The translations under genes were made by a program, and so were the position numbers. The notes under the pieces are model-generated. The model made no database searches. It saw nothing but the letters and a program-made list of their open reading frames with translations, and had not been told where the DNA came from. Positions 21,450 to 22,965 of a stretch of DNA of 34,834 bases are shown here, piece by piece (position 1 is the first letter of the stretch; each line of letters starts with the position of its first letter). The DNA lies in NCBI GenBank assembly GCA_003232725.1, contig QIJH01000200.1, forward strand, positions 1 to 34,834. Direction: 5' to 3'. Source of the stretch: Chromatiaceae bacterium (lineage in GTDB: Bacteria > Pseudomonadota > Gammaproteobacteria > SZUA-140).

Positions 21450-21773
21450 ATGGTCATTAGAAAAAAAACCACACTAGTTGGCTTTACACTGGCGGCACTG
21501 CTGGCCAGTAGCAGCGCACTCGCATGCAGCGCAATGGGTCCGAAGACCCATGTTGGCAACATCACCGAGATTGACCGCAATCAACACACCCTAACCATCA
21601 TGGATGCCGAAACCCAGCAGCCAATCACCTTTAGTGTCGATAACAAACAGCTGATGGCACTCAATAGCAGCGCTGGCCAGGTGATTGTGCGTTACCGTGA
21701 TGGCGATGATGGCATATTGATTGCCACCATAATTTTCACCCCTTTCCTCCACTGCGAGGAAAGGGGTCTGTAA
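21450..21773 (+). CDS. Small secreted protein of unknown function
   Basis: The 107-residue product begins with a clear signal peptide (RKKTTLVGFTLAALLASSSA, positively charged start then a hydrophobic core), with likely cleavage after ALA at about residue 25. AAGGAG lies seven bases before the ATG. The mature part is a small beta-rich domain (VGNITEIDRNQHTLTIMDAE, then VIVRYRDGDDGILIATI), which resembles small OB/DUF-type periplasmic proteins, but I do not recognise a family. The last residues (about 96-107) are encoded by a perfect hairpin and look unrelated to the domain, so the gene may once have ended differently. Confidence 0.7.
   Translation: MVIRKKTTLVGFTLAALLASSSALACSAMGPKTHVGNITEIDRNQHTLTIMDAETQQPITFSVDNKQLMALNSSAGQVIVRYRDGDDGILIATIIFTPFLHCEERGL
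21738..21767. other. Perfect 12-bp stem-loop at gene end, before hemW
   Basis: ACCCCTTTCCTC and GAGGAAAGGGGT form a perfect inverted repeat with a six-base loop (CACTGC). It overlaps the last codons of the secreted-protein gene and ends 28 bases before the proposed hemW start. It is strong enough to be a terminator stem but has no U-run on either strand. It may limit read-through or control hemW translation. Confidence 0.6.
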
Positions 21774-21795
21774 AACCGATACAAGGCAGCTTCCC

Positions 21796-22965
21796 ATTTT
21801 TAACTTCAGCGCCCTCCCGCCTCTCGCCCTCTATATTCATATTCCGTGGTGTGTGCGCAAATGCCCCTACTGTGATTTCAATTCACATGAGGCAAAACAG
21901 ACGATCCCTGAGCGTGACTACATCAGCGCATTGATCAGCGACCTCGACCAGTGCCTGCCGAGCGTGTGGGGGCGCACCGTTGATACCATCTTTATCGGCG
22001 GCGGCACGCCGAGCCTCTTTTCAAGCGAGGGGATGGATCGCCTGCTCTCCGAGATTCGTGCGCGCCTGCCACTTGCGCCGGGAATCGAGATCACCATGGA
22101 AGCGAATCCCGGCGCAATCGAGCAGGCAAAATTTGCCGAGTTTCGCAGCGTAGGCATCAACCGTCTGTCGATCGGCATCCAAAGCCTCAATGATGACCTG
22201 TTGCAAAACATCGGTCGCGTGCATAGTGCGCGCGAAGCGTATCGCGCGGTAGAACATGCACATGACGCAGGCTTCGAGCTAATCAATCTCGACCTGATGT
22301 ATGCCCTGCCCACACAGACACTGCCGCAGGCGCTGCAAGATCTGGATAATGCACTGGCACTGGAACCGACACATCTATCGCACTACCAGATGACAATCGA
22401 GCCCAACACCTGGTTCCATAAACATCCGCCGACCACACCTGGCGACGACCTTAGCTGGGCGATGCAGTCACAGTGTCAGGAGAGATTACGCGACGCCGGT
22501 TTTGAACATTACGAAGTATCCGCTTACGCTAAACCAGACAAGCAGTGTCGTCACAATATCAACTACTGGCAGTATGGTGACTATCTCGGCATCGGTGCCG
22601 GTGCCCACGCCAAGATTACCGACGCAATGCAACAGAACATCACCCGTACTGCAGTAGTAAAACACCCTAACGATTATTTACAACTCGCCTCCACGGAACA
22701 GCGCCATGCAACCAGAGAGGTGCTGTCACGCAGCGAAGTGCCGTTTGAGTTTATGATGAATGCATTGCGTCTCACTGAAGGTTTCCCGAACAGTCTCTTT
22801 TTTGAACATACCGGCCTGCCACTCAGCACCATCGATGGCGCACTGCAACGCGCCGAAGAAGAGGGGCTACTGGAATACGGCGTCCAGCTAATACGCCCAA
22901 CCGACAAAGGGCAACGCTTTCTCAATACATTGCTAGAGCTGTTTCTGCCAGCGGATAAGCGATAG
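21796..22965 (+). CDS. hemW: Radical SAM protein HemW (heme chaperone), probable ATT start
   Basis: HemW is a radical-SAM-fold heme chaperone related to HemN. The protein has the cluster motif CVRKCPYC (CX3CX2C), TIFIGGGTPSLFS, EANPG, GINRLSIGIQS and the C-terminal winged-helix region. The first usual start codon in frame is GTG 21853, but this would drop the first cluster cysteine and the conserved LYIHIPWC stretch. The frame is open back to 21733 with no ATG, GTG or TTG before that motif. An ATT at 21796, nine bases after AAGG, gives (M)FNFSALPPLALYIHIPWC, which matches family N-termini well, and 389 residues. A point error or mutation of ATG to ATT is the other reading. Confidence 0.85.
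   Translation: MFNFSALPPLALYIHIPWCVRKCPYCDFNSHEAKQTIPERDYISALISDLDQCLPSVWGRTVDTIFIGGGTPSLFSSEGMDRLLSEIRARLPLAPGIEITMEANPGAIEQAKFAEFRSVGINRLSIGIQSLNDDLLQNIGRVHSAREAYRAVEHAHDAGFELINLDLMYALPTQTLPQALQDLDNALALEPTHLSHYQMTIEPNTWFHKHPPTTPGDDLSWAMQSQCQERLRDAGFEHYEVSAYAKPDKQCRHNINYWQYGDYLGIGAGAHAKITDAMQQNITRTAVVKHPNDYLQLASTEQRHATREVLSRSEVPFEFMMNALRLTEGFPNSLFFEHTGLPLSTIDGALQRAEEEGLLEYGVQLIRPTDKGQRFLNTLLELFLPADKR

Follow-up and report, generated by a model that had tools for sequence, protein, structure and literature searches.

The hemW gene in the window (the whole 34,834-nt stretch of DNA that was analyzed) raises the question of where its translation begins. By profile and motifs, the product is a radical SAM heme chaperone. 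It scored 374.3 bits against the TIGR00539 profile, compared to a cut-off of 205.4, which places it among the HemW proteins, and it contains the Pfam domains Radical_SAM and HemN_C. The CX3CX2C [4Fe-4S] motif is present as CVRKCPYC at residue 19 (nt 21850, with the cysteine codons at 21850, 21862, and 21871), a GGGTP motif is found at residue 68, and the sequence HNINYW at residue 253 (nt 22552) matches HNxxYW, given as the heme-binding motif of HemW in one report (PMC10320005). A search of solved structures with HemW returned only NocN and HemN relatives. The difficulty lies at the 5′ end of the gene. From the in-frame TAA at 21730 up to the CX3CX2C motif, the hemW frame contains no ATG, GTG, or TTG. 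The first canonical start, picked by the mechanical ORF caller, is a GTG that adjoins the codon of the first cluster cysteine (TGT, 21850-21852) on its 3′ side. Since this GTG sits past the first cysteine, a protein made from it would be without one ligand of the [4Fe-4S] cluster. An earlier note on this DNA had proposed instead that hemW starts at an ATT at 21796 with an AAGG sequence nine bases before it; these coordinates proved correct, and re-reading of the sequence agreed with its statement that no canonical start lies upstream of the motif back to the stop. Reading from this ATT yields (M)FNFSALPPLALYIHIPWC, with MFNFSALPPL as the predicted N-terminal residues. The features of the region are collected in Table 1.

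TABLE 1 Features of the hemW start region and its leader, in coordinates of the window
Feature	Position	Strand	Remarks
Small upstream ORF, 107 aa	21450..21773	+	No Pfam or NCBIfam match
TAA, in-frame upstream bound of the hemW frame	21730..21732	+	
Perfect 12-bp inverted repeat (hairpin)	21738..21767	+	Between upstream ORF and Shine-Dalgarno sequence
Shine-Dalgarno-like AAGG	21783..21786	+	9 nt before start
hemW CDS read from ATT	21796..22965	+	389 aa, TIGR00539 radical SAM heme chaperone
Putative near-cognate start codon ATT	21796..21798	+	From genus comparison; outgroups have ATG/GTG/TTG at the same codon
Invariant 13 nt directly 3′ of start codon	21799..21811	+	All 8 species
GTG, first canonical in-frame start, codon 20	21853..21855	+	Pick of the mechanical ORF caller

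A total of 94 genomes were searched for hemW, of which 10, including the genome of the window, belong to the genus. A hemW-level match was found in eight of these ten (G000, G002, and G004 to G009), and in an oriented alignment the start codon is ATT in seven of the eight and ATC in the remaining one (G006). The DNA of the eight genes differs by up to 23% pairwise, and conservation at the protein level starts at the ATT/ATC codon. A check of close relatives for an ATG at this codon, suggested by the earlier note, found none among the eight hemW genes, and a check for an upstream start joined to the hemW frame found none that is shared within the genus. The conserved N-terminus is left without a common canonical start, and the near-cognate codon is kept in close relatives. 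The other two genus genomes (G001 and G003, 78% and 91% complete, respectively) showed no hemW-level match but only a distant HemN-like one, which reflects either loss of the gene or an assembly gap.

Substitution patterns within the genus point to the same codon. Codons 2 to 19 of hemW show 156.5 synonymous pairwise differences compared to 24.5 nonsynonymous ones among the eight species. The dN/dS ratio of hemW in the genus is 0.03 to 0.16, and dS exceeds 1 between the main lineages. An ATG could be restored by a single base change, yet none of the eight genes has one in spite of this divergence. The 13 nt that follow the start codon are invariant, and this is the longest invariant run in hemW, the next longest being 8 nt. 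When codon columns were shuffled, only 2 of 5000 shuffles placed a 13-nt run directly after the start codon, whereas 658 of 5000 had one anywhere in hemW. Sequence constraint near starts is also common in bacteria. For these two reasons, the invariant run was taken as supporting evidence only. The first codons of serB, which lies downstream of hemW, vary at synonymous sites across the eight loci. The simplest reading of these alignments is that the protein begins at the ATT/ATC codon.

Comparison with more distant genomes suggests the direction of the change. HemW proteins of other Gammaproteobacteria belong to the same TIGR00539 family, and many share the N-terminus MFxFxxLPPLxLYxHxPWC; where the N-terminus is similar, their genes have ATG, GTG, or TTG at this codon, whereas those of the genus have ATT or ATC. 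For instance, the outgroups L010, L011, L012, and L058 combine an MFNF/MFRF-type N-terminus with ATG at this codon, and ATG also occurs there in L018 and in L015, the latter from the same family as the window organism. Another member of that family (L016) has GTG, and L013 has TTG plus an ATG two codons upstream. The near-cognate codon thus stands where orthologs have ATG. The remaining family members have longer or different HemW N-termini. The N-terminal pattern was also sought in a sample of 369 genomes of the class. Its ATH form was found in three, which are the three members of the genus that were drawn, and its form with ATG, GTG, or TTG was found in 34, none of them from this genus. Because only one kind of HemW N-terminus is captured in this way (37 of the 369 genomes together), most genomes of the class are uninformative on this point. 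Among 105 hemW rows, eight from outside the genus (L044, L047, L056, L069, L070, L099, L104, and L106) also lack a canonical start in the 30 codons next to the motif histidine; theirs lies 32 to 57 codons upstream, and their N-termini are longer, so a near-cognate start is not needed there. These comparisons support the view that the ATT/ATC start of hemW is restricted to this genus in the sample. ATG is probably the ancestral codon, and ATT/ATC probably arose no later than the common ancestor of these species and has been kept since. A separate observation concerns the hemW gene of G018, from another genus of the family, which has no in-frame ATG, GTG, or TTG nearby (L027:1440-1510); initiation at CTG or a frame error of one base may account for this.

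In the leader upstream of hemW, the Shine-Dalgarno sequence is AAGG in six species and GAGG in two (L007 and L008). Four species have 9 nt between it and the start codon and the other four have 10 nt, which is a workable distance. This difference in distance means that the frame upstream of hemW is not common to the species. In judging this site the standard anti-Shine-Dalgarno sequence was assumed; the 3′ end of the 16S rRNA was looked for in the genus but not found. The hemW site may be very weak because AAGG is moderate compared to the GGAGG of infC in the genus and to the extended Shine-Dalgarno sequences of the near-cognate starts in Staphylococcus aureus. A moderate sequence of this kind suggests either a low output or an additional helper.

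Further upstream, a hairpin is predicted at this leader position in all eight species. Folding of the whole 85-nt leader was clearly better than that of shuffled sequences in five species (z scores of −3.67 to −1.89, with the window at −3.67), compared to z scores of +0.72, −0.72, and −0.81 for L007, L008, and L009, respectively. The hairpin was considered as a conserved regulator and set aside, as the leader clearly beats the shuffles in only five of the eight species. In L007 and L008, six or seven U residues stand behind the hairpin in the manner of an intrinsic terminator, about 28 to 55 nt upstream of hemW; the roughly 28 nt between the U-tract and the start codon leave room for a hemW leader or promoter. 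A promoter and terminator scan gave one promoter-like match (0.7 expected by chance) and two terminator-like matches (0.8 expected) and was not used. The small ORF in front of hemW has a relative at seven of the eight genus loci, the eighth (L003) being cut by a contig end. In the window this ORF stops 22 nt before the ATT, whereas in the relatives it stops further upstream with the hairpin in between. In L003 and L004 it terminates with CAGTAA; compared to L003, the genome of the window is without a stretch of about 23 nt that holds this stop, so the small-ORF frame continues through the hairpin to the TAA at 21771.

A near-cognate start could also reflect an unusual initiation machinery or a general habit of the genus. 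Eight full-length copies of the initiator tRNA from the genus (L230 to L237) are 99 to 100% identical and have the anticodon CAU throughout, and a changed initiator tRNA was therefore rejected as the cause of the ATT start. The copy in the genome of the window (L243, G000:C232, near 2540-2598) also reads CAT; it matches over 59 of 77 nt, diverges after that, and was passed over in tRNA gene calling; an assembly fault may be the reason. No initiator tRNA match was found in G009. The end mismatch of the genus initiator tRNA (L230 to L237) seems to be U1-U72 rather than C1-A72, the latter being the mismatch of the Escherichia coli initiator tRNA.

The census for near-cognate starts covered part of G005 (1,172,256 bases) and part of G004 (793,480 bases), with G000 left out. 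It gave 445 reciprocal best ORF pairs of at least 60% identity, or 220 after overlapping shadow ORFs were removed. In 176 of these pairs, both members have the same canonical start close to where the alignment begins, and 6 others touch contig ends, leaving 38. For two of the 24 remaining pairs without a close canonical start, hemW and infC, a near-cognate start was judged necessary. The other 22 comprise 14 pairs with a common canonical start further inside the frame, 1 with separate ATGs just upstream, 6 that look like shadow ORFs, and 1 that is ambiguous (G005 C6:87276). In the other 14 of the 38 pairs, at least one of the two genomes has a canonical start no more than three codons away; the pair-by-pair reading covered the 24. 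The recovery of infC, the gene for IF3, serves as an internal positive control; it was found in 5 of the 10 genus assemblies (L112 to L116), and in all five it has ATC after GGAGG. General use of ATT/ATC starts in the genus was rejected on the basis of this partial census. Together with the CAU initiator, the census indicates that the machinery looks ordinary and that hemW is exceptional in this sample.

Several other explanations of the missing ATG were weighed. The window comes from a draft genome (257 contigs, 91.7% complete), and a true ATG might be hidden by an error in sequencing or assembly or by a mutation private to this genome, or a missing base might disconnect hemW from an upstream start. 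However, ATT or ATC was found in all eight genus genomes with hemW in spite of their divergence in DNA, which rejects an error in a single assembly and leaves this explanation with a negligible chance. Alternatively, translation may begin at some other codon, with species-specific upstream GTG or TTG codons or an internal GTG producing differing N-termini. Candidates for such starts do exist: an in-frame TTG at −32 in L003 and L004, a GTG at −11 in L006 and at −7 in L007, and a GTG at codon 14 in L009 would all retain the cluster cysteines, and the GTG at 21853 is what the ORF caller picks in the window. Yet these codons do not fall at one place across the eight genes, and in G000, L005 (= G002), and L008 (= G007) no canonical start, whether upstream or downstream, retains the first cluster cysteine; in L005 a TAG even stands in frame three codons 5′ of the start codon. 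Moreover, the frame 5′ of the Shine-Dalgarno sequence varies by species, whereas codons 2 to 19 are under protein-level constraint. We therefore consider initiation at another codon quite unlikely.

The proximity of the small upstream ORF in the window suggests a further route, in which hemW is reached from that ORF by frameshifting or by stop-to-start reinitiation and the ATT has no special role. Non-canonical codons have been described as supporting reinitiation in E. coli reporters (PMC2268962). Against this route, the ORF ends further upstream in the relatives with the hairpin in between, and in two species with the U-tract behind it; the frame shifts between the Shine-Dalgarno sequence and the start across species, and reinitiation would itself use the ATT/ATC codon. 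This explanation appears very unlikely. The start at ATT put forward in the earlier note is thus borne out by ATT/ATC in all eight genus genes, ATG in the outgroups, the boundary of conservation, and an upstream frame that is not shared, and judging from these sequence comparisons hemW of this genus very probably starts at a near-cognate AUU (AUC in one species).

What such a start would do for the cell is less certain. In the mechanism that we propose, the ordinary initiator tRNA (anticodon CAU) would decode AUU or AUC downstream of the AAGG/GAGG sequence, the ancestral ATG having changed to ATT/ATC and then been kept within the genus. The weak start codon would most likely limit the synthesis of HemW, and by analogy with infC and pcnB the translation of hemW would be sensitive to IF3; extra IF3 is described as inhibiting initiation at non-canonical starts (PMC2268962). 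The earlier note had likewise raised a dependence on IF3, which is plausible in view of these two genes. We infer that selection favored a low level of HemW, and surplus HemW would presumably be harmful. That the weak start keeps HemW low and IF3-sensitive is the reading that we favor, with reservation, as it draws on analogy. The start may also be real and yet have no regulatory meaning, being a slightly harmful change that was fixed once and tolerated where the need for HemW is low. The change does fit a single ancestral event in one genus, the reduced yield is itself argued from analogy, and the length of the invariant 13-nt run is unremarkable when the whole gene is considered. However, ATG is one base away and absent from all eight genes despite the dS between the main lineages, and at that place such a run is rare among the shuffles. 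A start without regulation thus seems somewhat unlikely; this estimate overlaps with the one for the start site itself, and the odds are not exclusive. In E. coli, HemW is reported to hand heme to NarI of nitrate reductase (PMC10320005). A bolder version of the regulatory reading, which we regard as rather doubtful, would tie heme trafficking to initiation fidelity: HemW would join infC in an IF3-sensitive set, its output would track the IF3/ribosome balance and thereby the growth state, and selection would disfavor ATG, since HemW in excess would retain heme or send it astray.

Conserved near-cognate starts are already known as a kind, and hemW would add a gene to them. An AUU/ATT start of hemW was not recognized among the literature matches listed. 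To our knowledge, conserved AUU/AUC starts have been described for only a few chromosomal genes. Such genes readily escape notice, as the start codons that gene callers accept are ATG, GTG, and TTG; a good example of this is the window, where a caller of canonical starts yields a HemW without the first [4Fe-4S] cysteine. With a metabolic gene in which such a start extends across a genus, one can test directly whether selection maintains weak start codons as a limit on expression, and also whether the IF3 level governs genes besides infC.

A close precedent for the proposed limitation, apart from infC, is pcnB of E. coli (poly(A) polymerase I); Binns and Masters reportedly found from experiment in 2002 that its AUU start limits its expression. 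It differs from hemW in gene and function, and the limitation is experimental in pcnB whereas we infer it in hemW. E. coli infC, which encodes IF3, likewise has a near-cognate start (AUU) with a Shine-Dalgarno sequence upstream. However, infC is autoregulated via its own product, and hemW is without such a link; the Shine-Dalgarno sequence of hemW is weaker, and within the sample only one genus shows the hemW codon change. Both infC and pcnB are given as AUU genes of E. coli (PMC4245954, PMC1780047). The lepA genes of Borrelia burgdorferi and Bacillus licheniformis resemble hemW in that their AUU start was deduced from sequence, as the sole codon restoring the full-length protein according to one account (PMC1780047), in another gene and other phyla. 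In S. aureus, cvfC1 (AUU) and ccpN (AUA) are described as having conserved non-canonical starts that lower expression; the near-cognate starts of cvfC1, ccpN, and citZ are reported to give about 10% of the AUG level in poor medium, with ccpN reaching as much as 30% when the medium is rich (PMC13009471). According to the same report, the S. aureus sites have extended Shine-Dalgarno sequences and were mapped by ribosome profiling, whereas hemW has AAGG or GAGG and a start predicted from sequence comparison.
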